DNA from: an uncultured Gemmiger sp. | GTDB lineage: Bacteria > Bacillota > Clostridia > Oscillospirales > Ruminococcaceae | Direction: 5' to 3' | NCBI GenBank assembly: GCA_947629015.1 | Contig: CANRCB010000017.1 | Location: 1-40,777 of the forward strand | Length of the DNA stretch: 40,777 bases | Part shown: one piece after another, positions 22,786 to 39,920 of the stretch | Numbering within the stretch: position 1 is the stretch's first letter | Layout of the letters: each line of letters starts with the position of its first letter | Made by a program: the position numbers and the translations under genes | Notes under the pieces: model-generated | Databases searched by the model: none | Seen by the model: only the letters and a program-made list of their open reading frames with translations | What the model was told of the DNA's origin: nothing

Positions 22786-25700
22786 TCAATACCGCTGTAT
22801 CATGGGGAAGACCAGCGCCAGCACCGCCCAGGCCACCTGGTACAGCACCAAAGCGGGCAGCGGCAGCGCCGTCAGGCCCAGCGCCGGCACCGACATGATG
22901 AGCGCCAGCACCGCGCTGAACAGCACCGAGGCCGAAAGCACCATGCTGCCGCGGCGCTCGCCCTCGGCCGCGCCGGCCGCGGCCTCCAACCCGCCGACAA
23001 AGCTGGCAAAGCTGCCCATGTGCAGCATATTGCCGCTGCTCTCCGGCAGCCACGCGGTGGCGGGCTCGAGCGCTTCGCGCTCTTCCTCCGTGAGCACCTT
23101 GACGGCGCCGGCCTGCAGGCCGTACACGGCGGTGAGCAGGGCCTCGTCACAGTTGAAATCGTCGCCGTCCACCACAAAGGACACACCGCTGCGGCGCAGG
23201 CCGTCCAGCACGGCGGCGGTATCGGCATCGCGCTGGTAGGCCACCTGGAACACGCTGAACAGCTTGCCCGACACCGCCAGATAGATGAAGCGGCGTTGGT
23301 CGGCCGGGTCGCGCAGGTCATCGAGGTTGGGCACCTTGACGCCGTATTCCAGCATGAGCGCCCGGTTGCCGGCCAGCACGCGCTCGCCGTCGATCCAGCC
23401 GACATACCCCTTGCCGTACTCGGCCGAGAAATCATCGACCTTGGCCAGCAGCTTGCGGTTGCCGCCGATCATGCCCAAAAACACGCTCTGCATACTGGGG
23501 CAGCCCAGCGCCAGCAGCGAGGCGGCGTAGGTGATGGCGCGGTCGATCTGCTCCTTGTGGGCAGGCTTGATGCCGCACAGCCGGACCGAGCCCTCGGGGA
23601 AAAGGTCGTGCGTGGTGAGGTGGATGACGTTGATGCGCCCGAGCTGGCGGATATCGTGCCAGCCGGGGATGACGGCCCCTACCTGCGCCGCGCTGCGCTG
23701 CATGAGGAAGGCGGGCAGCGCCGAGAGCAGCGTGCCGGCAAGCGGCGCGCCCAGGCACAGCACGCACGCCAGCGCGGTGACGGCCTTGCCGGCATCGCGG
23801 TGGTACAGCAGCGTGAACACCACGCAGAGCAGCGCGCAGCCCGCCAGCACGCGGGCCAGCTGCTGCTGGTTCTTGTCGCTGGGGCGGCGGGCGGTGGCCG
23901 AAGCCAAAAAGCCCTTGAACAGCTCGGTCGGCCGGCTGATGAGCACGTAGGGGCGCGGTTCCGCCAGGCCGCGGGCCGCGGCCTGCAGCATACCGGATTC
24001 CGTCAGGCGGCGGGCCACGGCGTGCTCGGTCTTTGCCGAGACAAGGTCGAACCCGGCGCACAGCGCGCGGGCATCCAGCGCCTTGCCGAGGGTGTTGCCG
24101 CACAGCAGCAGCACCGCCGCGCCGCCCACAAGGGTGAAGCGCGCGGGGTCATACAGGTCCGGCCAGATGAGGAGCACCAGCACCTGTACCAGCGCGCCGA
24201 CGGCCGCCAGCGCGGCCATACTGTCCGGCGAGGGGGTGCGCACAAGGCCCGCCAGGCCCCACAGCATGGTGCGCCAGGCCACCGCGCACGCGGCGGCGAC
24301 GAACACCAGCATGGTGGCCAGCAGCGGCGTTTTGCCGGCGCTCAGCGCCAGCGGGGCGGGCATGGGCGCGCTGCCGGCGGCCGCCACGCCCAGATAGATG
24401 AGCAGCAGCGCCAGCGCGGCCAGGATGATGGTGCTGATGCCCAGCGTCATCGCCTGCCGCCGCAGATCCGCCTGCACGGCGGGGGCGTCCTCGGGTTTGT
24501 CGTAGCTGTGCTGCGCGGTGTGCGGCGCGGCGATAAAGGGCGAGGTTGGGGTCTCGGCCTGCTCGTCCTCGGGCACGCCCTTCAGGCGCACCGGGGCGGT
24601 GCCGGCCGGGGCGGCTTTGCCGGGCACGGAGGCGGTATCGGTCAGGATCTTTGCGGCTTCGGCAAAGCGGTCCTCCGGCTTGCCCGCGGTACCGGCCGCG
24701 GGGGCCGCCGCATCGGCGGGGCGGCTGTTGATGGCCTCCTCAATGTTGCGGACGAACTGGGAGGCCGAGGGCGGCGCCTCCTGCCCGGCGGGGGCCGGCT
24801 GCGGCTGCGCGCCGGCGCCGGCATCCAGCAGCACCTCGCCGGTGTGCGGCGCGGCGGGGGCAGGCCCCGCCGCGGGGCGGCGCATCCGGCGCGCCTCGCC
24901 GTACGCTTCCAGGAACAGGGCGGTATCCTCGGCGGGGCGTTCCCCGCCGATCTGCATGGTAAAGCCGCCCGTCCCGTCGGCGGGGGCGGGGGCAGGGGCC
25001 GGGGCGGCGTCCTCCGCCATCACCGGCTCGCCCACCGGCCCGGGGGCGCGCCAGGTCTGGGGCTCCGCCTTGCGGCGGGCCTGGCCGGGGAAATATTCCA
25101 CGGTATCCCGCTTTTTGCGGTAGACGCCGCCGGCGGGCGGGTCGGAGGGCTGGCCGCCCAAGATGTCCCCCATCCCCTGCTGGAGGAACTCCATCGTCGA
25201 GGTGCCGGGCAAGATGCCCTCAAGGGGGTCGCCCTGCGGTGTCTCAAAGGTGATCTCACCGGTGGTGCCGGCGCCGCCCGGCGCCGCGTCAAGGCCGAGG
25301 CCGGCGTCAAGGCCGAGGTCGGCAAAGATATCCGGTTCGGGTTCGTCCTGCGGCGCGCTATCCGCGGCAGACGGCACCTCCGGCAGGGTCTCGGGCGCGG
25401 GGCCGGCGGGCCACGATGCCGGTTCCGGCTCCGGCGCGGCCTCCTCGGGCCAGGCCTCTTCCTGCGGTTCCATCCGGATGGCCGGGGGCACATCCAGCCC
25501 GTTGCCGCGCCCCGCCGTATAGCGGGAGCGGATGCTGTCCATCGGGAGCTGCATGCTCAGCTGCCCGGCGGGGGGCAGGTCGGGGAAGGTCTCGTCCTCC
25601 AGCACGACGCCGCGGTGGGCGGGCGCCGGGCCGGGGGCGGGCTCCGCCTCGCGCGATTCGGGGATGTAGAGCTCCTCGGCCTGTTTGCCGCGGCCGAACA

Positions 25701-26496
25701 GCCGGGCAAAAAAGCCCTTCTTTTTGGGGGCGGCGGGCTCCTCTTCCTCTTCCTCCTCCGGCGCGGGGGCGGTGTGGTCGCCGGTGAGCGAGACGTTGAT
25801 GGGGCGGAATTCGCCGCTGTCCTCCACACGGCCGAGGCCGAACAGCCCCTTCTTTTTGCTGCGGGCGGGCTTGTTCCCCTTCTCGTCGGGGACGACGGCC
25901 GCGCTCTCGCCGAAAAAGCGCTGGAAGTCCGCCTTGCCCTCGTTGAGGGCGCCCTGGCTGGCGTCGGCGGCGCCGGGCGCCATCTTGAGCAGGAAATTTT
26001 TGATGATGCCGCTGCGGGTGGTATCGCCCAGCCCGTCGGTGGCCCCCTGCGGGGCAGGCGCAGATCCGGGTTCCGGCGCGGGTTCAGGCCGGGGCTCCGG
26101 TGCGGGGCCCGGCACGGGTTCAGGTTCGGGCGCCGGCTCGGGCGCAGGCTCGGGCGCGGGCGTAAACTCCGGCACAGGCGCGGGGGGCGCGGGTTGTGCG
26201 GCACCCTGCAGGCTGGGCAGGTCCTTGAGGAGCTCGTCCAGCATCAGGGTGGGGAACCGCTCCTCCCCGGCCGGCAGCGTGCCGCCGGCCAGCTCGACGG
26301 CGGGCAGGTCGGCGCGCTCGATGGGGCCAAGGCCCCCCGCGGCGGCGGGGGCGGGCTCCTCATACAGGCCCATGCCGCGCAGGATGTCATCCACCTGGCG
26401 GTCCGTCATGCTGCTGTTCACACTCTGGGCGGCCTGCTGGCGGTCCAACTCCTGCAAGATCTTATCGACGGAGTCATTGGTGCTTTTGCCTGGCAT
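22786..26496 (-). CDS. Large membrane protein with degenerate P-type ATPase module
   Basis: 1236 aa. Residues 1 to about 665 are disordered, rich in Pro/Ala/Glu, with short lysine clusters (KKKGLFGLGR, KKKGFFARLFGRGKQ). The C-terminal part follows a P1B ATPase plan: TM helices from about 684; NTLGKALDARA; a much shortened actuator region; VLCLGAPLAGTLLSALPAFL where the CPC helix should be (about 920-940); INVIHLTTHDLF where DKTGT should be (near 960); GKGYVGWIDGERVLAGNRALM, a typical N-domain segment (near 1040); GVSFVVDGDD in place of the TGDN loop; and a final TM pair. The catalytic Asp and the GDGxNDxP hinge are absent, so ATP-driven transport is unlikely. A regulatory or structural role is inference. 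It is downstream of, and possibly cotranscribed with, the rRNA methyltransferase gene. Confidence 0.75.
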   Translation of the reverse strand: MPGKSTNDSVDKILQELDRQQAAQSVNSSMTDRQVDDILRGMGLYEEPAPAAAGGLGPIERADLPAVELAGGTLPAGEERFPTLMLDELLKDLPSLQGAAQPAPPAPVPEFTPAPEPAPEPAPEPEPVPGPAPEPRPEPAPEPGSAPAPQGATDGLGDTTRSGIIKNFLLKMAPGAADASQGALNEGKADFQRFFGESAAVVPDEKGNKPARSKKKGLFGLGRVEDSGEFRPINVSLTGDHTAPAPEEEEEEEPAAPKKKGFFARLFGRGKQAEELYIPESREAEPAPGPAPAHRGVVLEDETFPDLPPAGQLSMQLPMDSIRSRYTAGRGNGLDVPPAIRMEPQEEAWPEEAAPEPEPASWPAGPAPETLPEVPSAADSAPQDEPEPDIFADLGLDAGLGLDAAPGGAGTTGEITFETPQGDPLEGILPGTSTMEFLQQGMGDILGGQPSDPPAGGVYRKKRDTVEYFPGQARRKAEPQTWRAPGPVGEPVMAEDAAPAPAPAPADGTGGFTMQIGGERPAEDTALFLEAYGEARRMRRPAAGPAPAAPHTGEVLLDAGAGAQPQPAPAGQEAPPSASQFVRNIEEAINSRPADAAAPAAGTAGKPEDRFAEAAKILTDTASVPGKAAPAGTAPVRLKGVPEDEQAETPTSPFIAAPHTAQHSYDKPEDAPAVQADLRRQAMTLGISTIILAALALLLIYLGVAAAGSAPMPAPLALSAGKTPLLATMLVFVAAACAVAWRTMLWGLAGLVRTPSPDSMAALAAVGALVQVLVLLIWPDLYDPARFTLVGGAAVLLLCGNTLGKALDARALCAGFDLVSAKTEHAVARRLTESGMLQAAARGLAEPRPYVLISRPTELFKGFLASATARRPSDKNQQQLARVLAGCALLCVVFTLLYHRDAGKAVTALACVLCLGAPLAGTLLSALPAFLMQRSAAQVGAVIPGWHDIRQLGRINVIHLTTHDLFPEGSVRLCGIKPAHKEQIDRAITYAASLLALGCPSMQSVFLGMIGGNRKLLAKVDDFSAEYGKGYVGWIDGERVLAGNRALMLEYGVKVPNLDDLRDPADQRRFIYLAVSGKLFSVFQVAYQRDADTAAVLDGLRRSGVSFVVDGDDFNCDEALLTAVYGLQAGAVKVLTEEEREALEPATAWLPESSGNMLHMGSFASFVGGLEAAAGAAEGERRGSMVLSASVLFSAVLALIMSVPALGLTALPLPALVLYQVAWAVLALVFPMIQRY

Positions 26497-28812: not shown

Positions 28813-28950
28813 CCGTGTGCGGAAAAAGCAAAAGGACATCCCCTGCGGCGGGGGCAGGGCCCTACGCGCCGCAGGCGACGGATGAGGGGAAACAAGATGC
28901 CGTTTGCGGGAAGGCAATCGCCATCCCCACGTGTACCTCGCGGGAAAATT

Positions 28951-29029
28951 GTAGGGCGGGCCTTCAGGCCCGCCGTGAAACGTCGATGCCGCGGCAAGGT
29001 TTTGCGGCGGGGTCAAGACCCCGCCCTAC
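28951..29029. repeat. REPIN, type A (79 bp)
   Basis: GTAG plus GGCGGGCCTTCAGGCCCGCC (28951-28974) faces GGCGGGGTCAAGACCCCGCC plus CTAC, ending at 29029. It has the same head, arms and length as the REPIN at 21716, so it belongs to the RAYT-linked family. It lies in the 443-bp gap after fba. Confidence 0.88.
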
Positions 29030-29057
29030 AATCCGGATGATACGTTTCCGTATCCAT

Positions 29058-29192: not shown

Positions 29193-32036
29193 TTACTGCG
29201 CGCGGATGCCGTACCGGCGGCAGAGGACGGCAAATTCGTCGCTGCCGGTAAAGCCGTCCATCACGGTTTCCCGGCTTCCGCCGCCGTTGAGATCCGTCAC
29301 CCAGCCGCTCTCCTCGCCGCCTTCCGGCATGCGGTCAAAGAAGGCGCGGTACATATACTGTACGAATGTCTCGTTGTCAAAGCCGCGGGCTTTGAACTCA
29401 TCGCTGAAAATAAACCCGTGCGCCACCTGCCGGCCCGTCTCCTGCCGCGTGCGCAGGATCTCCATCCATTTCTGTGCGTCAGCGTCCGGGTCGCGGTCAA
29501 GGCAGATGCGGTACAGCCGCACCACAAAGTCCTCCACGCCGTCGGTGGCGCCGCACCCGGCGCAGGTACCACGCCGCACCGTGCCGACGCCCTCCGGCTC
29601 GGCGGTGCCGGTGCCGGGGTCGATGCCGTACTGTTGGCAGAGGGCCTTGAACTCGTCGCTGCCGACAAAGCCGTTGAACACACTTTCACGGCTCTGGCCC
29701 TCTTCCTCAAGTACGCGCATCCACCCGGCGTGGCCCTCGGTGTCCGGCTCGCGGCCCATGAAGGCGCGGTACAAATGGTCGATATAGCAGCTGTTGCAGT
29801 AGTTTTTCGCCTTGAACTCATCGCTGAAGATAAAGCCGCAGGCCGCTTGGCTGCCGGTGTTGCGGTGGGAGACAAGGGCAGCCGTCCAGCCGTCGAGGCC
29901 GGCGTCGTCCGGTGTACGCCCGAGACAGACCTCATACAGGCGGGTGACAAAGGCCCGGACCTGGCTGTCATCGGCCGAAGTGCCCGGCTGCGTGCCGGGG
30001 TCGGGCTGTTGGGCCGTCACCGTGACGGTTTTGCCTGCGCTGTAGTCACTGTAGAGGGTCTGGCCATCCTCGCGCAGGCAGCACACCGCAAGGGTGTAGG
30101 TGCCGGGGGCGGCGTTGCTGATCATATACGAAGCCGAGGAGCTGCCATCGCCGGCCACATCCCCCGCCGCCGTCCAACCGCTGCCGTTCAACTGATAAAA
30201 CACACGGTAGTACGAGACACCGGGGACACTGCTCCACTCCAGCGTGATGGTATTGCCATACACCAGCGGGTCATAGAGCGTGGGCGGCAGCGCGCCGGTG
30301 GCCACAAAGCGGTAGCCGTTCAGGTTGGCGCAGCGCTGCGCCTCGCTGCCGCAATAGCCCTCGATGGTAAAGCCGACGGCGGGCGAACCAAACGCGCCGC
30401 CGGCGATGGAGTTGACGGACGGCGGGATGGAGACGGTGCGCAGGTTGGCACAGTCCGAAAACACGGTGTTGCCGATTTGGGTGATGCCGCTGCCGATGAC
30501 GGCCCTGGTGATGCAGCCGCTGAACGCCTCCCACTGTTTTGCGGCGTCCTTATCCACGGCGCCGGTGCCTTCCACATACAGCGTATAGTTTTCATCCATG
30601 TGCCAGCGGAGGCTGGCGCCGGCCGTACCGCCGGGCATCTCGCCGCAGCTGTAGCCCCCATCGGCGCTGGAGAAGGCGCCGCTGCTGCTGACGGTATAGA
30701 AGGTGGTCCTGCCGTCGCTGGTATACCAGACCGCCGCCCCGTTTTTGACCACGGGCTTGCAGTCCGACAGGCGGCCGTCCACGGTATGGACGCCGCCCAC
30801 CAGTTTCCCGCTGGCGTTGACAAAGGCATAGCACAGCTTGCGCATGGGATCCTCTTTCCAGATATCCTGGGCCTGGGCCATCTTGTCGCCGATCTCCCAC
30901 AAAACAAGGAAGGAATTATCCCCCATCTTGACCATCTGCGGCGTGGAGGTGGTCAGCGTGCCGTTCTGCGTATAATTGGTCAGCCATGTGGTGGTGGTAG
31001 TGCCCGTCATGCTGCTGCGCGGCGTGGCGGTGACAAAGACGTTGCGCACCGCGACGTTGCTGAAGTACATGGTAGGCGCCTGCACATAGTTGCCCGCCGC
31101 AAGGTAGTTGCTGGCAGAGTATTCCAGCCCGCCGAGCGACGCACCGGTGGCGTTTGTGCCATCATTTCCTTCGAAGGAGCGGATCTCGGCATAGGTGTAT
31201 TGGCTGCCCAGCGGGTTGCTGCCGTTCGCCTTGGTGGCGTAACGCCCCAGCACGGCGCTGCGGGGGCTGGCATCGCTATGGTCGAGCGCGACGAGGTTGC
31301 CCGCGTCATCCACGAGGATGAACTGGTTGTTGGAATGGCTGATGTACCCTTTGCCGGGGTACGATACCCCAGTAGCGGAACCCGTCACCGTCATATTCGA
31401 GGTGCGCACCTGCATCGTCAGGTTGGCCTGGTGGTTCTCGCCGTTTACTGTGTACATTTCGTGGCAGGTACGGATGTAGAGGTACCCGCCGTATTCCGCC
31501 ATGCGCAGCGAACCGGCTTCGAACGGGCGGGTGGTGTTGGCGCCGCGCAGGGACGCGGCGCCCTTACGCACCCAGTTGGTATCGTATTTGGTCACGCGGA
31601 TGACCTCGGTCTGGTCGTTCTGTCCTGGATTGTTCTGGCCGGTGACGAGGTAGCAGGACCCGCCGCTGCCGGCGTAAAACCCGCCGTACAGCGGCAGTTC
31701 GCCGCTGATATCGACATAGCGGTACGACGTGCGGCGGAACGCATCGTCAAAATAGCGCACAAGCAGGGCCTTGCCGCTTTGGGTGAGCTCCACCGCCATG
31801 TACCCGGACGCCTGCGGCACAAGGCAGGAGGTGACGGGCGCCGCCCAGGTGAGATAGTTTTGCGTGCCAAGGGTGGGGCGGCCCGGCTCGTTGCTGCCCG
31901 CGGCCTCCCATACGGCTTCGGCCTGGTCCGCCTCTGCCGGAAGGGGGCCGGCCGGGGTCTCGGCAAAAGCGGGCAGCGCTGCGGCGGCGCACAGCGCCAG
32001 CGCCAGCACCAGGGCGGACAGCGGTTTTTTGAACAT
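29193..32036 (-). CDS. Secreted multidomain protein with BspA-type LRR, Fn3 and two DUF4214 domains
   Basis: 947 aa. A signal peptide with cleavage after LPAFA (25/26) leads into about 480 residues of beta-rich repeats resembling a propeller (repeated aromatic/Gly strands, FILVDDAGNLVALDHS). One BspA/LRR_5 unit (IGSGITQIGNTVFSDCANLRTV, about 509-545) follows, then an Fn3-like domain (about 582-675). Two DUF4214 domains (about 684-802 and 832-943) end the protein. Each holds two similar halves with FIFSDEFKA and FxGSDEF motifs and a Cys pair. A short CAGCGATDG segment links them. There is no sortase motif or C-terminal anchor, so it is secreted or held by binding. It is the last gene of the operon; its function is unknown, and extracellular adhesion is inference. 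Confidence 0.85.
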   Translation of the reverse strand: MFKKPLSALVLALALCAAAALPAFAETPAGPLPAEADQAEAVWEAAGSNEPGRPTLGTQNYLTWAAPVTSCLVPQASGYMAVELTQSGKALLVRYFDDAFRRTSYRYVDISGELPLYGGFYAGSGGSCYLVTGQNNPGQNDQTEVIRVTKYDTNWVRKGAASLRGANTTRPFEAGSLRMAEYGGYLYIRTCHEMYTVNGENHQANLTMQVRTSNMTVTGSATGVSYPGKGYISHSNNQFILVDDAGNLVALDHSDASPRSAVLGRYATKANGSNPLGSQYTYAEIRSFEGNDGTNATGASLGGLEYSASNYLAAGNYVQAPTMYFSNVAVRNVFVTATPRSSMTGTTTTTWLTNYTQNGTLTTSTPQMVKMGDNSFLVLWEIGDKMAQAQDIWKEDPMRKLCYAFVNASGKLVGGVHTVDGRLSDCKPVVKNGAAVWYTSDGRTTFYTVSSSGAFSSADGGYSCGEMPGGTAGASLRWHMDENYTLYVEGTGAVDKDAAKQWEAFSGCITRAVIGSGITQIGNTVFSDCANLRTVSIPPSVNSIAGGAFGSPAVGFTIEGYCGSEAQRCANLNGYRFVATGALPPTLYDPLVYGNTITLEWSSVPGVSYYRVFYQLNGSGWTAAGDVAGDGSSSASYMISNAAPGTYTLAVCCLREDGQTLYSDYSAGKTVTVTAQQPDPGTQPGTSADDSQVRAFVTRLYEVCLGRTPDDAGLDGWTAALVSHRNTGSQAACGFIFSDEFKAKNYCNSCYIDHLYRAFMGREPDTEGHAGWMRVLEEEGQSRESVFNGFVGSDEFKALCQQYGIDPGTGTAEPEGVGTVRRGTCAGCGATDGVEDFVVRLYRICLDRDPDADAQKWMEILRTRQETGRQVAHGFIFSDEFKARGFDNETFVQYMYRAFFDRMPEGGEESGWVTDLNGGGSRETVMDGFTGSDEFAVLCRRYGIRAQ

Positions 32037-32082: not shown

Positions 32083-35000
32083 TCAGTAGGTGGCAAGGGT
32101 GGTGCCGGGGAAATAGTGGGTAAGGATCTGGTCGTAACGCCAGCCGTTGCGGGCGCAGCCGACGGCGCCCCACTGGCTCATACCGCAGCCGTGGCCGTAG
32201 CCGTAGACATCAAAGATAAAACAATCGAGTTCCGCATCATAGGTAAAGGTAAAGCACTGGCTGCGCAGGCTGCCGCCCGTAACGCTCTGCCGGGCCAGCA
32301 GCGTCTCGCGGAACCACGCACCGCTGCAGGTGGTGTTCTGGCCGCCGTCGGGGCCGATCTGCATTTTGGACACCCAGCCGTATTCATTGGCCGAGAGGAT
32401 CTTGAACCACTGGTTGGGGTCTACGCCGGCAAGGTCGATGCCAAGGCGGCTTTTGATGCGCTCCTCGAGCTGGGCGCGGGCAAAGCGCGCCGTGCCGCTG
32501 GTGGCGCCGTTGGTGTGCCAGTTGGTGGCGAACCGTTCGTCATAGGGGCTGTCCACCGGCTGGAGCCACGCGCGCTCCCCGCCCCAGACATCAGCCGAGG
32601 AGGCCGTGCCCTTGCTGGCGGAGGCAAAATAGGGCGTGAACGCCACCTTACCGTTGTAGGTGACGAGCACGTGCGCCACCTCCCGCGCGGCGGCCAGCGC
32701 GGCCTCGCCCGGCTCCTGCCCGAGCACCGCAGGGTAGCCCCCCTGGCTGAGGATCCAGCAGTGGGTGGCCACGCACTGGGCCTTGTACGCCTCGGCGGGC
32801 GCGCCGGCGCCCAGCTCGTTCTGGGCCACCATGGCCAGGCAGCGGACAAGGTCCATCGTCTGGGCGCTGCCGTTCATCGTCACGTTGATGGTCTCGCCCT
32901 CGGCGGAAGTCACGGGCGGTTCTGCCGGGGGTTCCGGCGTGGGCTCCGCGGGCGGTTCCGGCGTGGGCTCGGCGCCGGGATCGGCGCCGGGTTCTGCGCC
33001 GGGGTCGGCGGGGTCATCGACGACCGGGTCGTCGGGCGGGGCGGGCGTAGGCTCCTGCGGGGGCGGCGTGGGCTGGGGCGGGGCCTCGGTGGGGGCGGCG
33101 GGCGGCGCGGCGGGCAGGGTGGGGATATCCACCTGCTGCTCCGGCAGCGTGCCGGCGGCGCCCTGGTCAAGGTCGCTCTCGATGACGGAATGCCCGTCCA
33201 CGACGTCGGTCAGGCCCTTGAGCATCAGCTCGTCGGCCTGCGCGATGACGTTTTCGGCCTGGCTTTGCAGGTTTTGGAGATCTTCCTCCTGCTGCTGCAG
33301 GCCGTCCAAAATGCCGGTGCGGCCGGGGCCGGCCATCTCCTCCAGGGTGGAGCGGTCGGCGGCATAGTCCGCAAGGCAGGCCGCGAGCAGGGCGCCGACG
33401 TCGGGCATGGCGTCCGTGCCGGCGTAGCGCGCGGCGGGCAGCAGCGGCTGTTCGGCCGCCGTGATGGCGGCAGCGTTGAGCTGGGCGGATTCCGTCCCTT
33501 TGACAAGGCGGCCCGTCACGCACAGCAGCCCGCCGGCGTCGTCGGGGGCGGCCAGCGTCAAAAAGCTGGCGCCAAGGCCGGTTTGCAGGCCGGTGTCGAA
33601 CAGGCTGCGCATCCGCACGCCCATCACAAAGGCGAGGTAGCGCCCGTAGGCGGAAAGGTCGCCGTAGGCGGCCGGGTCAAAGGCGGTGGCGGGGGGCTCG
33701 GCGGGGTCGGCATAATAGACGCCCAGCACCTTGTAGCGCAGGGGGTCTTGCGCGGCGGTATACAGCGTAAAACCGCTGTTTTCTTTGAGGGTCTCAAGCG
33801 CGGCAAAGGGGCCGAGGCCGTCCTTCATGTCGATGACGGTATGCCCCGGCTGCGCCGAGCCCAGCCAGCACGGCTCCCCCAGCGCGGCGCGGGCGGGGGC
33901 GTCCGGCCCGGCAGCGTCCGCCTCGGCCGCGGTGTAGACAAGGCGCCCCGCCTGCCCGGGGAAGGCGAGGTACCCCAACACCCCGGCCTGCTTTTGCTGC
34001 GCGTTTTCCAAGTAGGCGGCAGCCTGCGCGTCAAAGCGGGCGGTGCCGTACATGCGCGGCTCGGGCGGGGTGCCGAGGCTGCCGCGGAAATACCGCCACA
34101 GCGCGAACCCGCCCGCCAGCAGGATGAGCAAAAACAGCAGCAGGATCAACAGCACGGTGCGGCGGCTGCGGCGCTCGCTCCGTTCGATAAGCTGCAGGCT
34201 GCGGTTGCGCAGCGCCTCGGCGCGGGCGCCGGGCAGCGGGTCCCCGCGGCCGTACAGGCGGTCGGCCGCCTGCTGCATATCCGGCTGCGGGGCGGAACGC
34301 GGCAGGGTGTAAAAATCCGGCACATCCTCATCCAGCAGCGAATGCGGCGGCGCGGGCCTTTCTTCCGGCTGCGGCGCGGGGGCCGGGGCCGGGGGTTCCG
34401 GCGCAGGCGCGGGGGCCGGGGGTTCGGCCTTTTCGGGCGCGGGGGGCTGGGGCTGCGGGGCGGCGCGGCGGATGCGCCGCGCGGGGGCGCCGCCCGGCGC
34501 CTCAAAGGTGATGGTGCCGGTGCGGCGGGCGCTGCCGCCAAGGTCCATCTCGCCGCCAAGGGTCCTTGTGGCGGCGGCAAGATCCAGCGCGGCGGCATCT
34601 TCCTCCGGCTGGACGGGCAGGTTTTTGGGGCGCGCTTTGTGCGCCGGGAAACGGGCGGTATCGCCGCGGCGCGCCTGCCCCACCTGGGAGACGAGCAGCA
34701 GCGGGTGCTCGTGCCCGGGGCGGAACGCGATGCTGCCGGCGGCGGGCGCCAGGCCCAGCACGCGGCGGCGGACCAGGTCCAGCAGGTGGTTGGTGATGGC
34801 GCCCTCGCCCAAATCGGGGGCAAGGGCGGTGGCCACGGCGCCGCGCCGGTCACACACCAACACAAAGGGCGGCTGCCCCACGCCGGCGGGGGTGTACACG
34901 GCGGCGCAGTCCGCCTGGCCGGCCAGCAGCGCCGTGGCGGCGCGCCCGGCCGCGGCCTGCACAGGGTCACCGGGGAATTTTTGCGCAAGCGCCGGCGGCA

Positions 35001-35424
35001 CCACGATGCGCTTGGCGTTTTGGGGGTGGCGGTAGGTCTGGCTGCCGAAATCAAAGGCGGCCTCGCTGTGCGCAAGGCCCTGCAGCGCGCCGCCCAGCAG
35101 GCGGCCGGTGGCCTCGTCCACCGCGACCAGCAGCTTGCGCTTTTGCAAAAGCGCGGTGAGCGCCGCCTCGGCCAGGCCCACCTCGCCCTCGGCGTAAAGC
35201 GCGTCGCCAAAGGCGGCGCGCAGGCGCGCGGCCCATTTTTCGCAGTAGGCCTTTGCCATCTCCCGTGTGGGGGCGCTGCCCTGGATGCAGACGGCATATT
35301 CCCCGTCGCGCTCCAGCAAACGCAGGCCGGGGCAGCCTTCGTCCCGCACGGTGCGCAGCACGGCGGTGACCTCGGCGCCCGGCAGGCCGAACACGCGCAA
35401 GATTTGCAGACAGGTTTGCAGCAT
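32083..35424 (-). CDS. CinA-like / TM / sortase-like / SpoIID fusion protein
   Basis: 1113 aa from the ATG at 35424 (GGGGGTGTGGCC upstream). Residues 1 to about 90 match the CinA linker and KH domain, and about 95-225 match the CinA C-terminal domain of the adjacent CinA, but ESCTGG has become DEATGR. A Pro/Ala-rich stretch (about 300-370) and a basic region lead to one TM (about 422-443). About 456-640 resembles a class B sortase (GVLGYLAFPG; FTLYTAAQDPLRYKVLGVYY; SFLTLAAPDD; TGRLV). The catalytic His is absent (HTVIDMKDG where YGHNMKDG is expected) and so is the Cys (TLAAP for TLSTC). A Pro-rich spacer (about 765-840) precedes a SpoIID/LytB domain (about 842-1113; QNELGAGAPAEAYKAQCVA, YGYGHGCGMSQWGA). 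SpoIID proteins are lytic transglycosylases. The N-part is cytosolic, the rest outside. Confidence 0.8.
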   Translation of the reverse strand: MLQTCLQILRVFGLPGAEVTAVLRTVRDEGCPGLRLLERDGEYAVCIQGSAPTREMAKAYCEKWAARLRAAFGDALYAEGEVGLAEAALTALLQKRKLLVAVDEATGRLLGGALQGLAHSEAAFDFGSQTYRHPQNAKRIVVPPALAQKFPGDPVQAAAGRAATALLAGQADCAAVYTPAGVGQPPFVLVCDRRGAVATALAPDLGEGAITNHLLDLVRRRVLGLAPAAGSIAFRPGHEHPLLLVSQVGQARRGDTARFPAHKARPKNLPVQPEEDAAALDLAAATRTLGGEMDLGGSARRTGTITFEAPGGAPARRIRRAAPQPQPPAPEKAEPPAPAPAPEPPAPAPAPQPEERPAPPHSLLDEDVPDFYTLPRSAPQPDMQQAADRLYGRGDPLPGARAEALRNRSLQLIERSERRSRRTVLLILLLFLLILLAGGFALWRYFRGSLGTPPEPRMYGTARFDAQAAAYLENAQQKQAGVLGYLAFPGQAGRLVYTAAEADAAGPDAPARAALGEPCWLGSAQPGHTVIDMKDGLGPFAALETLKENSGFTLYTAAQDPLRYKVLGVYYADPAEPPATAFDPAAYGDLSAYGRYLAFVMGVRMRSLFDTGLQTGLGASFLTLAAPDDAGGLLCVTGRLVKGTESAQLNAAAITAAEQPLLPAARYAGTDAMPDVGALLAACLADYAADRSTLEEMAGPGRTGILDGLQQQEEDLQNLQSQAENVIAQADELMLKGLTDVVDGHSVIESDLDQGAAGTLPEQQVDIPTLPAAPPAAPTEAPPQPTPPPQEPTPAPPDDPVVDDPADPGAEPGADPGAEPTPEPPAEPTPEPPAEPPVTSAEGETINVTMNGSAQTMDLVRCLAMVAQNELGAGAPAEAYKAQCVATHCWILSQGGYPAVLGQEPGEAALAAAREVAHVLVTYNGKVAFTPYFASASKGTASSADVWGGERAWLQPVDSPYDERFATNWHTNGATSGTARFARAQLEERIKSRLGIDLAGVDPNQWFKILSANEYGWVSKMQIGPDGGQNTTCSGAWFRETLLARQSVTGGSLRSQCFTFTYDAELDCFIFDVYGYGHGCGMSQWGAVGCARNGWRYDQILTHYFPGTTLATY

Positions 35425-35467: not shown

Positions 35468-36769
35468 TTACAGATCCCAAGTATCGGGCGCGGCGTCGGC
35501 GGCGGCGCACCGCGCCCCCGGCTGGCCGAGCCCCAGCGCCATGCGGCGCAGCACATCCAACGCCCACAGCGCGGCGCGGGCACGCACGACCTCCCGCTCC
35601 CGGTAGGCGGAAAGCGCCAGCCGGTACAGGTACGCCTGCCCGGTGCGCGCATCGGCCCCCGCCAGGTAGACGGTGCCCACCGGCTTGCCCGGCAGCGCCC
35701 CGCCCGGCCCCGCGATGCCGGTGACGGCAACGGCCAGCTCGGCGCCGGAAGCGGCGAGCGCGCCGCGCGCCATGGCTACGGCCACCGGGCCGGAATAGAC
35801 GGTATACCGTTTTAAAAGTTCCTCCGGCACGCCCAGCAGCGTCTGCTTGGCGGCCTCGGCATAGGTGACGAACCCGTAGCCGAACACCTCGCTCGCGCCG
35901 GGGGCCTCGGTCAGGCGCTGGGCGATGAGGCCGCCGGTGCAGCTTTCGGCCGTGGCGGCGTGCAGGCCCCTTTCCCTGAGGGCGCGCACCACCGTCCACG
36001 CAAGGCCGGGCACATCGGTATCGTAGGCGGCGTCGCCCAAAACAGCGCGGAATTTTGCAAGGCGCTCCTCGCACAGGGCCTCGGCGGCGGCCGCGTCGGC
36101 GGCGCGGGCGGTGACGCGTATCTCGCTCTCGCCGGTCTTGCAGTAGATGGCAGCGGTGGGGTTTTCGCCCTCGAACAGCGGGGCCGCCTTGCTGGCGATG
36201 CTGCTCTCGCCGCCCAGCACGTGCAGCGTGCGGCTGCGGATGGTGCAGTTTTGCCGCCGCTCCAGCAGCGGGCGCACCTGCTCGGCCCACATGGCCTTCA
36301 TCTCCCGCGGGACGCCGGGCAGCAGCACGGCGCAGTGCCCCTGCCCATCCTCGAACCACGCGCCGGGCGCGGTGCCGTGGTCGTTTTCCACGGCGTGGCC
36401 GCGGGTGGGCACCATCGCCTGTTTGCGGTTGTTTTCGGTCGGCGTGCGGCCCATGCGGGCGAAAAAGGCGATGATCTTCCGCCACTGCGCCTCGTCAAAG
36501 CGCAGCGGGTCGTCAAAGGCGGCGGCGACCGTCTCCTTGGTCAGGTCGTCGGCCGTGGGGCCAAGCCCCCCGGAAAAGACCAGCAGCCCGCTGCGGGCTT
36601 TGGCCTGGGCGACGAGCGCCTGCAAACGGGGGACGTTGTCCCCCACCACGTGCTGGTGCAGCACGCTGATGCCCAGCTCGGCCAGTTCCCGGCTCAAAAA
36701 TTGGGCGTTGGTGTTGACGATATCGCCGAGCAGCAGCTCGGTGCCGACGCAGATGATCTCAGCGGTCAT
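35468..36769 (-). CDS. cinA: CinA (nucleotide-processing / NMN deamidase family)
   Basis: 433 aa. Residues 1 to about 170 form the MoCF domain (AEIICVGTELLLGDIVNTN; FSGGLGPTADDLTKE). The KH-type linker runs from about 175 to 260. The C-terminal domain carries ATAESCTGGLIAQRLT (near 275), GYGFVTYAEAAKQTLLGV and VTGIAGPGGALPGKPVGTVY. CinA proteins act as ADP-ribose pyrophosphatase and/or NMN deamidase in pyridine-nucleotide salvage. The ATG at 36769 has AAGGAGAGG; a start nine codons upstream is rejected. It lies 23 nt after thiI and 43 nt before the fusion gene whose N-terminus is its paralogue. Confidence 0.95.
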   Translation of the reverse strand: MTAEIICVGTELLLGDIVNTNAQFLSRELAELGISVLHQHVVGDNVPRLQALVAQAKARSGLLVFSGGLGPTADDLTKETVAAAFDDPLRFDEAQWRKIIAFFARMGRTPTENNRKQAMVPTRGHAVENDHGTAPGAWFEDGQGHCAVLLPGVPREMKAMWAEQVRPLLERRQNCTIRSRTLHVLGGESSIASKAAPLFEGENPTAAIYCKTGESEIRVTARAADAAAAEALCEERLAKFRAVLGDAAYDTDVPGLAWTVVRALRERGLHAATAESCTGGLIAQRLTEAPGASEVFGYGFVTYAEAAKQTLLGVPEELLKRYTVYSGPVAVAMARGALAASGAELAVAVTGIAGPGGALPGKPVGTVYLAGADARTGQAYLYRLALSAYREREVVRARAALWALDVLRRMALGLGQPGARCAAADAAPDTWDL

Positions 36770-36792
36770 GGCCTCTCCTTTTTGTACGGCTT

Positions 36793-37989
36793 TCACGGCA
36801 GCGGGGCGTCCCCCATGCGCACGGGCACCTTTTCGGCGCCTTCGGCGGCCGCCGCTTCCAGCGCCGGCAGTTCCGGCATGGCGGCCTCGGCGTCAAGGAT
36901 CCCGGCAAGGCGCGGGCGGGTCTTTGGGTGGGCCGGGGTGAAGATGGTGCAGCAATCCTCATACGGCTGGATGGAGGTATCAAAGGTACCGATGCGCCGC
37001 GCAACGGCGATGATCTCGTTTTTGTCCATGCCGATGCAGGGGCGCAGCACCGGCAGCGCCTGCGCGGTATCGGTGCATTGCAGCGCGGCCAGCGTCTGGC
37101 TGGCCACCTGGGCCAGGCTCTCGCCGGTGACAAGGGCGTCCAACCCGCACCGCTTTGCCACCGCGGCGGCGATGCGCAGCATGCTGCGGCGCATGAGCAC
37201 GGTGAAGATATCGCCGGGGGCGTGGTCGCGCAGGTATTCCTGCGGGGCGGTGTAGGGCACGACGAACAGCGTGCAGTCCCCCGTATATTCGCTGACGAGG
37301 GCGGCCAGCTCCTCGACCTTTTGGCGGGCGCGGGGGCTGGTGTAGGGCGGGCTGGCAAAGTGGATGTGGTGCAAAGCCAGCCCCCGCCGGGCCATCATGT
37401 AGGCGGCGACGGGGCTGTCGATGCCGCCGGAAAGCAGGTTGAGCGCCCGCCCGCTGGTGCCCACCGGCAGCCCGCCGGCCCCTTCCCGCTTGGGGCCGTG
37501 CAGGTAAGCGCCGCCCTCGCGTATCTCGACCATGACCTCCAGCTGCGGCGCGTGCACGTCGACGCGCAGATGCGGGTGGCAGCGCAGCAGATGCGCGCCC
37601 AGCTCGCGGCAGATCTCGGGGCTTTGCATGGGGAATTTTTTGTCCGCCCGCCGCGCCTCGACCTTGAAGGTTTTGACGCGGCGCAGTTCCGGGTCGAGGT
37701 ATTCCTCGGCCGCCGCGCAGATGGCGGCAAAATCCTTTGCGCACACGGCGGCGCGGGAAAGGCGCACCAGGCCGAAAATGCGGGAAAGGCGGCGCTCGGC
37801 CTCGTCCAGGTCAAAACCTTCGCTCTGCGGGGTGATGAACACCGTGCTCTGCGCCTGGGTGAAGCCGAAATCCCCAAGCCCGCGCAGGCGCGCGCGGATG
37901 GTTTTGGCAAGGCACGCCTCAAATTTGCCGCGGTTGAGGCCCTTGAGCGTCATCTCGCCCTCATAAGCAAGCAGTATCTCATGTATCAT
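36793..37989 (-). CDS. thiI: tRNA 4-thiouridine synthase ThiI
   Basis: 398 aa. N-terminal ferredoxin-like and THUMP domains (about 1-165; LLAYEGEMTLKGLNR, FKVEARRADKKFP) precede an adenylation domain with PP-loop LLSGGIDSPVAAYMMARRG (near 185). It ends without the rhodanese domain found in the E. coli protein, as in Bacillus. It puts sulfur on U8 of tRNA with sulfur from a cysteine desulfurase, and the gene 20 nt upstream encodes exactly that. Cys residues PYEDCCTIF near 345 fit the family. The ATG at 37989 has GGGAG upstream. Confidence 0.95.
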   Translation of the reverse strand: MIHEILLAYEGEMTLKGLNRGKFEACLAKTIRARLRGLGDFGFTQAQSTVFITPQSEGFDLDEAERRLSRIFGLVRLSRAAVCAKDFAAICAAAEEYLDPELRRVKTFKVEARRADKKFPMQSPEICRELGAHLLRCHPHLRVDVHAPQLEVMVEIREGGAYLHGPKREGAGGLPVGTSGRALNLLSGGIDSPVAAYMMARRGLALHHIHFASPPYTSPRARQKVEELAALVSEYTGDCTLFVVPYTAPQEYLRDHAPGDIFTVLMRRSMLRIAAAVAKRCGLDALVTGESLAQVASQTLAALQCTDTAQALPVLRPCIGMDKNEIIAVARRIGTFDTSIQPYEDCCTIFTPAHPKTRPRLAGILDAEAAMPELPALEAAAAEGAEKVPVRMGDAPLP

Positions 37990-38009
37990 CGTTATTTTCT
38001 CCCGTTTTG

Positions 38010-39176
38010 TCAGATGTGCCGCAGCGCGGCAAGGCCATCGCGCACGCCGTCGAGCAGGGCGTCGATGTCCTCGGGGGTGTTGTCGGCGCAGAGGCTGACG
38101 CGCAGCGCCGTGCGGACGGTGCGCGCATCGCACCCCATGGCGAGCAGGGTGTGGCTGGGCTCGCCCTTGTCGCACGCGCTGCCGCCCGAGACATACACCC
38201 CGCGCGCGTCCAGAAAGCCGATCATCGTCTGGCTGTTGACGCAGCCGGTGGAAAAATTCAGGATCTCCGGCACGCCGCCGGCGCCCGGCGCGGGGCCGTT
38301 GAAGGTGATGCCCCCAAGCCCTTCCAGCCCCGCCCGCAGGCGCGCGTGCAGCGCGGCGACGGCCGCGGCGCGCTGGCGGAGGGTGGCGGCGCCCTGTTCG
38401 GCGGCAAGGCCGAGGCCGACGATGTAGGGCGTGTTCTCGGTGCCGGGGCGGATGCCGCGCTCCTGATGGCCGCCGAGGTAGGGCGGGCGCAGGTGCTGGC
38501 GCTGGTTGTCGCACAGATAGAGCGCCCCCACGCCCTTGGGCGCGTGCACCTTGTGCCCCGAGACGGAAAGCGTATCCACGCCGGGCAGGCGCTTTATATC
38601 AACGGGCAGGCGCAGCCACGCCTGCACGGCGTCGATATGTACGGCGCAGCGGCTGTTTTTGACCTTGACGCCCGCCGCGAGGGCGGCGATGTCCTGCAGG
38701 GCGCCCGTCTCGTTGTTGACGGCCATGCAGGCCGCGAGGGCGGTATTTTTATCGACGGCGGCCAAAAATTTCTGCAGGTCCAGCGTGCCGTCCCTTTCGG
38801 GCGGGATCTCGCGCACCTCCCACCCCTGCCGGCCCAGCGCGCGGATGGGCCGCTGCACGCTGGGATGCTCGAACCCCGACACGACGATGTTTTTGCCCCA
38901 TGCGGCGCGGGCCCCGGCGGCGCCGAGGATGGCCAGGTTGTTGCCCTCCGACCCGCCGGAGGTGAAATAGACCTCGTCCGCGCGGCAGCCAAGGCTTTTG
39001 GCCACCTGCGCGCGGGCGGTTTGCAGCGCGTTCTGCGCCGCCACGGCCGGGCCGTACAGGCTGCTGGGGTTGGCCCAGTGGCCCGAAAGCGCTTCGGCCA
39101 CGGCCGCCGCCACCGCGGGGCTGACAAGGGTGGTGGCGGCGTTATCAAGGTAGTGCAGCGCGGGGTCGGTGCGCAT
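38010..39176 (-). CDS. Cysteine desulfurase (NifS/IscS family), ThiI partner
   Basis: 388 aa PLP enzyme. YLDNAATTLVSPAV near the N-terminus, TSGGSEGNNLAI, FEHPSV (base-stacking His), HIDAVQAW, the Schiff-base Lys in SVSGHKVHAPKGVG (near 199) and the active-site Cys loop SGGSACDKGEPS (near 323). It takes sulfur from cysteine. Position before thiI makes it the dedicated sulfur donor for 4-thiouridine (as NifZ-ThiI in Bacillus) rather than the main Fe-S enzyme. The ATG at 39176 has AAAGGAT. First gene of the operon. Confidence 0.93.
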   Translation of the reverse strand: MRTDPALHYLDNAATTLVSPAVAAAVAEALSGHWANPSSLYGPAVAAQNALQTARAQVAKSLGCRADEVYFTSGGSEGNNLAILGAAGARAAWGKNIVVSGFEHPSVQRPIRALGRQGWEVREIPPERDGTLDLQKFLAAVDKNTALAACMAVNNETGALQDIAALAAGVKVKNSRCAVHIDAVQAWLRLPVDIKRLPGVDTLSVSGHKVHAPKGVGALYLCDNQRQHLRPPYLGGHQERGIRPGTENTPYIVGLGLAAEQGAATLRQRAAAVAALHARLRAGLEGLGGITFNGPAPGAGGVPEILNFSTGCVNSQTMIGFLDARGVYVSGGSACDKGEPSHTLLAMGCDARTVRTALRVSLCADNTPEDIDALLDGVRDGLAALRHI

Positions 39177-39221
39177 GGCGGGGCATCCTTTCGGTAAAAA
39201 TGTACAAACTGATACAGGATA

Positions 39222-39250
39222 ATTATACACGTGCCGCACACCAAAAACAA
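39222..39250 (-). promoter_or_regulatory. Sigma-A promoter of the cysteine desulfurase operon
   Basis: On the minus strand: TTGTTT (39250-39245), 17-nt spacer, TATAAT (39227-39222). This is the only good promoter seen for the run of five minus-strand genes ending at 29193. Confidence 0.7.
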
Positions 39251-39260
39251 GGCGGAAATG

Positions 39261-39299
39261 TAAAAACCCGGCCTGTGCGGCGCAGCGCACAGGCCGGGT
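39261..39299 (-). terminator. Minus-strand terminator downstream of the spoVAC region
   Basis: A perfect 13-bp stem (39266-39278 with 39287-39299) is followed, on the minus strand, by TTTTTA (39266-39261). It ends transcription coming from spoVAC before the desulfurase promoter. This implies a spoVAC transcript with a roughly 620-nt structured 3' region. Confidence 0.82.
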
Positions 39300-39341: not shown

Positions 39342-39920
39342 GCGGGCCGATTGGACCCCGCCCTACAAACCACCCGGGAACAACATTTGCAGCAAGGTTC
39401 GGGGCGTCGGGGACGCCGCCCCCTACAAACCCGATGCTATGTTTCTCGCGGTTTGCGGGCCGCATTGCAGGGCACCCCTTGCGGGGCTATGCGGCCCCTA
39501 CGGACGTTCCGTTGGTGTCTGCAAAACCGTTTGCCACGCCCTGCCCATAGCGGCGCGCAGCGCGGCGTGAGCGTGGACGACGCCGCAAGGTGGCGTCCGT
39601 CCGGCGGACGGGAGATGGTGCCCGCCGAAACAACCGGGCGATGTCTTGCCTCGGGGGTTTCCAAAGGGGGGAACCCCCTTTGGTCGTGGGTCCGCTGCAT
39701 GCGAAACCAGCGGGACCTTTCTGGTTCTCTTTCGGTCACGAAAGAGAACGGAAAAACCCAAATCCCGGCAGCAGGCGGCAGCCAACAGGCCTCGTGGCGG
39801 GGTCAAGACCCCGCCCTACAAATCGACCGGAAATGGGATGCAATTTGCGGGCCGATTGTGATCGGCCCTTACGGGATGGATGATACGTTTTCCTTTTCCC
39901 TGTAGGGGTGCGGCGGGGCC
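39342..39920. repeat. Cluster of REP elements and perfect hairpins
   Basis: This region has no convincing gene. It contains REP-like units at 39342-39366 (chimeric), 39401-39426 (type B), 39457-39501 (a longer hairpin, GGGCCGCAT / ATGCGGCCC), 39796-39819 (type A) and 39847-39875 (GGGCCGAT / ATCGGCCC type), plus a partial GTAGGGG element at about 39902. Between them lie perfect hairpins CCAAAGGGGG-GAA-CCCCCTTTGG (39660-39682) and GTTCTCTTTCG-GTCA-CGAAAGAGAAC (39724-39749). It forms the tail of the predicted spoVAC transcript. Confidence 0.8.

Follow-up and report, generated by a model that had tools for sequence, protein, structure and literature searches.

The open reading frame (ORF) at positions 32083..35424 of a 40,777-nucleotide contig from an uncultured Gemmiger sp. 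(family Ruminococcaceae; GenBank assembly GCA_947629015.1, contig CANRCB010000017.1; this whole stretch is called the window below) encodes a 1113-residue protein in which a degenerate CinA-type region, a membrane helix, a degenerate class B sortase-like domain and a SpoIID domain are joined in a single chain. The finding is real, and it is larger than first stated. The domain order (CinA KH and C-terminal domains, transmembrane helix, sortase-B-like domain, SpoIID) had been proposed in an initial annotation made from the letters alone and was confirmed by profile matches. Chance and mis-assembly were ruled out: the frame is present in the one-contig genomes G004 and G027, and mis-assembly is also contradicted by the same frame in named records of Gemmiger formicilis and relatives. 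We favor, at a probability of roughly 55%, the reading that the protein would cut glycans from a membrane anchor, with its enzyme relics acting as an inner docking module and an outer spacer or wall-binding module.

The C-terminal end is a predicted peptidoglycan glycan-cleaving enzyme. The curated model TIGR02669 matched residues 856–1111 with an E value of 1.1e-29 and 104.2 bits against a cut-off of 83.3; the Pfam SpoIID model scored 16.1 and did not reach its cut-off of 23. The solved SpoIID structure 5i1t was also matched (E 1.2e-18), and Glu870 pairs with a Glu of 5i1t, inside a weak first segment of the alignment. E88 is essential in Bacillus subtilis SpoIID, according to an excerpt of PMC6635528. 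The active-site Glu is conserved in 72/72 aligned domains, in line with the initial view of a probably active lytic end. With both the curated-model match and the catalytic Glu, the domain resembles the SpoIID/LytB enzymes of B. subtilis and Waddlia; it differs in that about 840 residues precede it in the Gemmiger protein. To our knowledge, the known SpoIID/LytB enzymes carry neither a CinA nor a sortase part. A permuted SpoIID domain, with the C-terminal GYGHGVGMSQWGA motif ahead of the N-terminal part, was observed elsewhere (L031:6232-7758; fetched loci are denoted by L and genomes by G).

The N-terminal part matched Pfam CinA_KH (residues 8–78, E 8e-4) and NCBIfam PRK00549 (residues 7–204, E 1.6e-11), both below the curated cut-offs. 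Profile–profile comparison by hhalign of 13 Gemmiger rows of the orthologue alignment with 12 normal CinA proteins gave a clear match (probability 99.2, E 7e-20, 230 columns), in support of the proposed CinA assignment; the same part compared with sortases as a control scored 0.1. Solved CinA 6mr3 was matched over residues 7–176 (E 1.9e-8). In AtCinA, part of the published account (PMC5384747) gives an S31/K63 dyad and Tyr58 as the catalytic residues, and the window protein has E, Y and N at the positions of S31, Y58 and K63. None of 23 Gemmiger rows retains the Ser, 18 have lost the Lys, and four have Trp in place of the Tyr. The fused part is thus similar to CinA/PncC nicotinamide mononucleotide (NMN) deamidases in its KH and C-terminal domains without bearing their full set of Ser/Lys dyad and Tyr58. 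The expected loss of the ESCTGG motif was likewise borne out, the site reading DEATGR instead. Unlike CinA/PncC, the fusion is membrane-tethered, and no N-terminal COG1058 domain was detected in the window protein by Pfam and domain scans; many fusions from other genera do have this domain.

In 24 orthologues, 52/184 columns of the CinA C-terminal domain are invariant, among them D103, E104, T106, G107, P179, G183, Q184 and P186. Such replacement of a lost catalytic motif by a conserved one would suit inside-out signaling, in which the CinA-like pocket still takes up NMN, ADP-ribose or a related nucleotide and the state of the pocket, passed through the helix, switches SpoIID on or off. A nucleotide-site-like pocket with proposed ligand triggering is described for SteA in an excerpt of PMC12977500. 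The losses of Ser, Lys and Tyr counted above speak against signaling, and rigid coupling would be hard because a 133-residue Pro-rich linker precedes the helix. We consider signaling unlikely; the data agree no less well with a role as scaffold or anchor.

The sortase-like part of the window protein had no match to the sortase models of Pfam and NCBIfam up to E 1. Compared by hhalign with 12 unfused sortases from relatives, which have His, Cys and Arg in 12/12, it gave a probability of 98.2 (E 4.7e-14, 203 columns), against 0.3 in the control with CinA. A hidden Markov model (HMM) built from 46 active sortases recovered the window ORF at E 6.5e-5 in a search of 4969 ORFs, and the other Gemmiger rows ranged from E 5e-11 down to the level of reversed-sequence controls (best control 0.027). 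The solved-structure search with the Gemmiger sortase profile was not clean, antibody chains outranking sortase B. At the active site of the window protein, His falls in a deleted loop, Cys is replaced by Pro and Arg by Leu. His and Cys are absent from 24/24 Gemmiger rows, as the initial annotation had supposed for the window protein, and Arg is retained in 8/23; 25/205 columns of this part are invariant in 24 orthologues. The resemblance to class B sortases (TIGR03064, whose cut-off is passed by the relatives L128 and L137) is one of sequence profiles, and the Gemmiger domain differs in its lost His and Cys, its deleted loop and its fusion at both sides. Conservation of the catalytic residues at other positions was checked in the 24 Gemmiger rows. 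For His the answer was plain, no His column reaching six rows; for Cys it was mixed, Cys635 being Cys in 23/24 rows and Trp in L014. As no His is conserved, Cys635 is probably not a relocated active site.

The start Met is shared with the window protein across the orthologue alignment. The chain has a single membrane helix, and its N-terminal flank is the more positive one in 23/24 Gemmiger rows (in the window protein by only +3 versus +2), so the CinA part probably lies inside the cell. Behind the pseudosortase, strongly hydrophobic residues occupy 0.61 of the a/d positions and 0.12 of the others in the 20/24 rows that could be anchored, a signal matched by 11/1000 column shuffles.

The protein was present in all 35 same-genus genomes searched, the window's own included. 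It forms one frame in 30 of them, and in the other five (G001, G003, G018, G024 and G032) the pieces break near contig ends. At the fetched loci, which were picked from top matches and describe breadth rather than frequency, 33 ORFs carry sortase and SpoIID in one frame and 30 of these also have the CinA part; the L117 fusion is cut by a contig end, and its remaining piece, L116, is excluded from the counts. The survey of homologues that the initial annotation had suggested thus found the three-part fusion in 27 genera with Gemmiger, all of the window's family. Query residues 449–1113 are matched in 189/197 family genomes, SpoIID alone being enough for a match. Two fusions that were checked with curated models, L128 and L137, passed the cut-off for class B sortase (TIGR03064) as well as that for SpoIID (TIGR02669), and L137 additionally passed that of the curated PncC domain. 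Chains that join CinA, a transmembrane helix and sortase but lack SpoIID are present both outside the window's family (L032, L036, L153, L155) and within it (L031, L157). In a class search of 292 genomes, with at most four candidates per genome scored, no full fusion was recognized outside the family; a 1670-residue frame with a sortase match in G049, from another family, was left aside. We found no paper on a CinA, sortase and SpoIID combination in the open-licence literature, in keeping with the initial remark that no such system is described; papers returned for SpoIID–sortase fusions dealt with other topics, and those for pseudosortases with pilus work.

The fusion gene lies 43 bases behind a normal CinA gene, which itself follows ThiI and cysteine desulfurase genes (Table 1), and no terminator-like site is listed in the 43-base gap. 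Both ThiI and NifS are in the fetched stretch for 30/33 fusions. The same setting surrounds unfused genes. cinA and srtB adjoin in L154 and L162–L165, with ThiI and NifS in the stretch in 5/5; L158–L161 have a PncC-like gene, two to four tandem class B sortase genes and spoIID in a row, with ThiI and NifS in 3/4 and ThiI only in the stretch of L161. Because unfused cinA, srtB and spoIID share the nifS–thiI setting with the fusions, the fusion probably arose in place, as a gene cluster turned into a single protein. The tandem arrays of L158, L160 and L161 comprise three to four sortase genes between the PncC-like gene and spoIID. Among clusters present in at least five loci, no constant sortase substrate or downstream gene emerged; the clustering was weak, resting on a crude longest-ORF choice that includes shadow frames, of which clusters c2 and c4 were taken to consist and were discounted.

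The active sites of the sortase and CinA parts have been lost repeatedly, and the SpoIID Glu is constant. Among 27 ORFs outside the Gemmiger-type clade, the sortase His, Cys and Arg are kept in 16 and the CinA Ser, Tyr and Lys in eight. L137 alone keeps both sets, and L134, L138, L144 and L171 keep neither; the sortase of L168 has His, Cys and Arg. On a SpoIID tree of 52 rows, in which 20/49 inner branches have good support, the sortase state changed at least six times and the CinA state at least three, with three sortase contrasts on well supported branches. The 23 rows outside the Gemmiger-type clade comprise 13 with only the sortase set, six with only the CinA set, three with neither and one with both. 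Considered together, the spread over 27 genera, the sites still intact in some of them and the conserved cluster argue for a family-wide protein whose enzyme parts appear to have died in some lineages.

Loss in the CinA part follows the presence of another copy. In 29 chosen genomes, eight have their sole strong CinA inside the fusion, and Ser, Tyr and Lys are all kept there; in 18 a strong CinA is encoded apart from the fusion, and the fused copy lacks one or more of the three residues or the whole domain; in the remaining three (G090, G084 and G125) no CinA scored strongly. Fisher's test on this association gave 4e-5, relatedness ignored. The fused CinA thus loses residues where a second copy can do the work, and mostly it still stays in the chain. 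The genome of L168 (G125) is a 0.7-Mb assembly, 97% complete, in which the sortase–SpoIID frame is kept and SpoIIP and CinA were not found; its congener G216 has a 613-residue frame with a SpoIID match.

Selection was gauged by the ratio of nonsynonymous to silent substitution rates (dN/dS), taken from 276 pairwise comparisons among 24 orthologues; the values are rough because roughly half of the silent sites differ. The medians are 0.23 for KH, 0.33 for the CinA C-terminal domain, 0.47 for the pseudosortase and 0.20 for SpoIID, and 0.48, 0.64 and 0.64 for the cytosolic linker, the stretch after the sortase and the helix. The CinA relic is clearly kept under purifying selection. These values bear on the view that the gene fusion was neutral and that CinA and sortase are decaying passengers, only the anchor and SpoIID mattering. 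Repeated loss of active-site residues agrees with it, as do the failure to detect the sortase in L129 or the CinA part in L134, L147 and L168 and a pseudosortase dN/dS not below that of the linker. The KH and CinA C-terminal values near that of SpoIID, the new conserved motifs and a frame that is broken only near contig ends in the same-genus genomes oppose it, and we regard it as quite unlikely.

The protein could instead be an additional SpoIID for sporulation, a partner of SpoIIP during engulfment or at the spore wall that does not work in growing cells. Spo0A was found in 25/26 genomes and SpoIIP in 23/26, including all eight Gemmiger genomes tested, and a YpeB-like germination gene lies at 13 fetched loci, including eight of the 33 fusion loci; the copy in L141 was recognized with a model, and the other copies by their similarity to it. 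However, SpoIIP was undetected in G075 and G099, which keep the fusion, and in G125, which keeps sortase–SpoIID, and Spo0A was not found in G075 either; these three genomes are 94–97% complete. Another SpoIID frame of ordinary size (358 residues) exists in the window genome, and SpoIID acts at the septum in Waddlia, as an excerpt of PMC6635528 has it. A role confined to sporulation is in our judgment very unlikely.

Under the favored reading, neighboring cinA, srtB and spoIID genes behind nifS–thiI would have fused within Gemmiger's family, giving a bitopic membrane protein that works through a glycan-cleaving enzyme of SpoIID type at its end. On the Gemmiger branch, the fused CinA would no longer have had to catalyze because a separate CinA gene adjoins the fusion, the sortase residues would have been lost too, and both relics would have been retained for their folds. 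The KH and C-terminal CinA fold may form a cytosolic dimerization or docking module, perhaps paired with the adjoining free CinA, and the pseudosortase with the short coiled coil may keep SpoIID close to the glycan strands, as a spacer or a wall-binding module outside the cell. The architecture, the gene cluster of the same parts, the active-site losses and the purifying selection are read from sequence; dimerization, docking, the spacer role, cutting activity and the place and time of action are inferred. CinA dimerizes through its KH and deamidase domains, according to part of PMC4246079. In SteAB–RipA of Mycobacteriales, a works-like analogue as outlined in excerpts of PMC12977500, a cytosolic dimeric nucleotide-enzyme fold, helices and an outer core with a coiled coil position a wall hydrolase; the proteins are separate there and the hydrolase is an endopeptidase, and we draw the analogy without claiming sequence kinship. 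In Glp–GlpR of Corynebacteriales, a repurposed cofactor enzyme (MoeA) serves cell division as a scaffold and has a receptor in the membrane; the system differs in being two proteins, of which Glp binds FtsZ (excerpts of PMC10522489).

Several observations weigh against this favored reading. The pseudosortase and the stretch following it evolve fast, like the cytosolic linker, and the pseudosortase is kept no more strictly than that linker. Some Gemmiger rows are hardly recognizable as sortases by sequence: L017, L018 and L019 reached only E 0.03–0.25 with the active-sortase HMM, and L004/L043 gave no domain under E 1. The coiled coil is weakly supported. ThiI and NifS are not in the fetched stretch of the fusions L147, L156 and L168. 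A trade-off between live CinA and live sortase was considered and rejected, not being significant once relatedness was taken into account.

Table 1. Positions of the fusion protein, its parts and the adjoining genes in the window.
Feature	Position	Strand	Basis
Whole protein, 1113 residues	32083..35424	-	ATG at 35424, stop at 32083, no internal stops
CinA-type KH domain, residues 7–80	35185..35406	-	Pfam CinA_KH E 8e-4; hhalign to CinA
Degenerate CinA C-terminal (NMN-deamidase-like) domain, residues 84–225	34750..35175	-	PRK00549, hhalign, 6mr3
Lost AESCTGG motif site (DEATGR), residues 103–108	35101..35118	-	D103/E104/T106/G107 invariant, 24 rows
Pro/Ala-rich cytosolic linker, residues 268–400	34225..34623	-	Pro at 29/133
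Membrane helix, about residues 421–443	34096..34164	-	Sole stretch with 19-residue mean hydropathy >1.6
Pseudosortase, class B type, residues 471–672	33409..34014	-	hhalign; active-only HMM
Sortase Cys position, Pro627 (TLAAP)	33544..33546	-	Alignment to sortases
Cys635, on strand expected to bear sortase Arg	33520..33522	-	Cys in 23/24 Gemmiger rows
Short coiled-coil-like stretch, about residues 708–745	33190..33303	-	a/d hydrophobicity, weak
Pro-rich extracellular linker, residues 768–842	32899..33123	-	31 Pro within residues 760–842
SpoIID/LytB domain, residues 845–1113	32086..32892	-	TIGR02669; solved SpoIID 5i1t
Glu870, SpoIID catalytic Glu position	32815..32817	-	E in aligned SpoIID domains
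Separate full-length CinA, ESCTGG kept, directly upstream	35468..36796	-	PRK00549 E 7.8e-133, over cut-off
ORF with ThiI (tRNA uracil 4-sulfurtransferase) from about ORF residue 176	36793..38514	-	TIGR00342 E 1.8e-102, over cut-off
Cysteine desulfurase (NifS/IscS type)	38010..39290	-	TIGR03402 E 1.5e-94, under cut-off; Pfam Aminotran_5 E 1.9e-70

Directly downstream of the fusion gene, window positions 29193-32036 (-) encode a DUF4214-repeat protein with a weak match to BspA-type leucine-rich repeats; no similar ORF (1e-15) was found at the other fetched loci. An inverted repeat with 34-nucleotide arms, 74% complementary, lies at 28948-29032 and is like a repetitive extragenic palindrome; one arm recurs at 39787-39821 (about 39.8 kb) with 89% identity. 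A 1236-residue ORF at 22786-26496 (-), with no Pfam match at 1e-5, is either a gene or a shadow frame.

More tentatively, and at well below even odds, the protein may be a new transmembrane device in which the state of NAD salvage or the docking of CinA is coupled to wall cutting through one helix, with two modules repeatedly passing from enzyme to pseudoenzyme across 27 genera while the cutter stays constant. If this is true, the family would offer a natural series showing how enzymes turn into scaffolds. Three enzyme families whose processes are unrelated (NAD salvage, protein anchoring and glycan cutting) meet in one membrane-crossing chain, and the lineage spans unfused genes, fusions that look live, others that are half dead and others in which neither relic is live, the SpoIID end being constant throughout, so that the passage from enzyme to scaffold would be traceable step by step. 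Naming such genes by a single domain misleads, and the fusion is a candidate for how a SpoIID-type enzyme may be placed and controlled.

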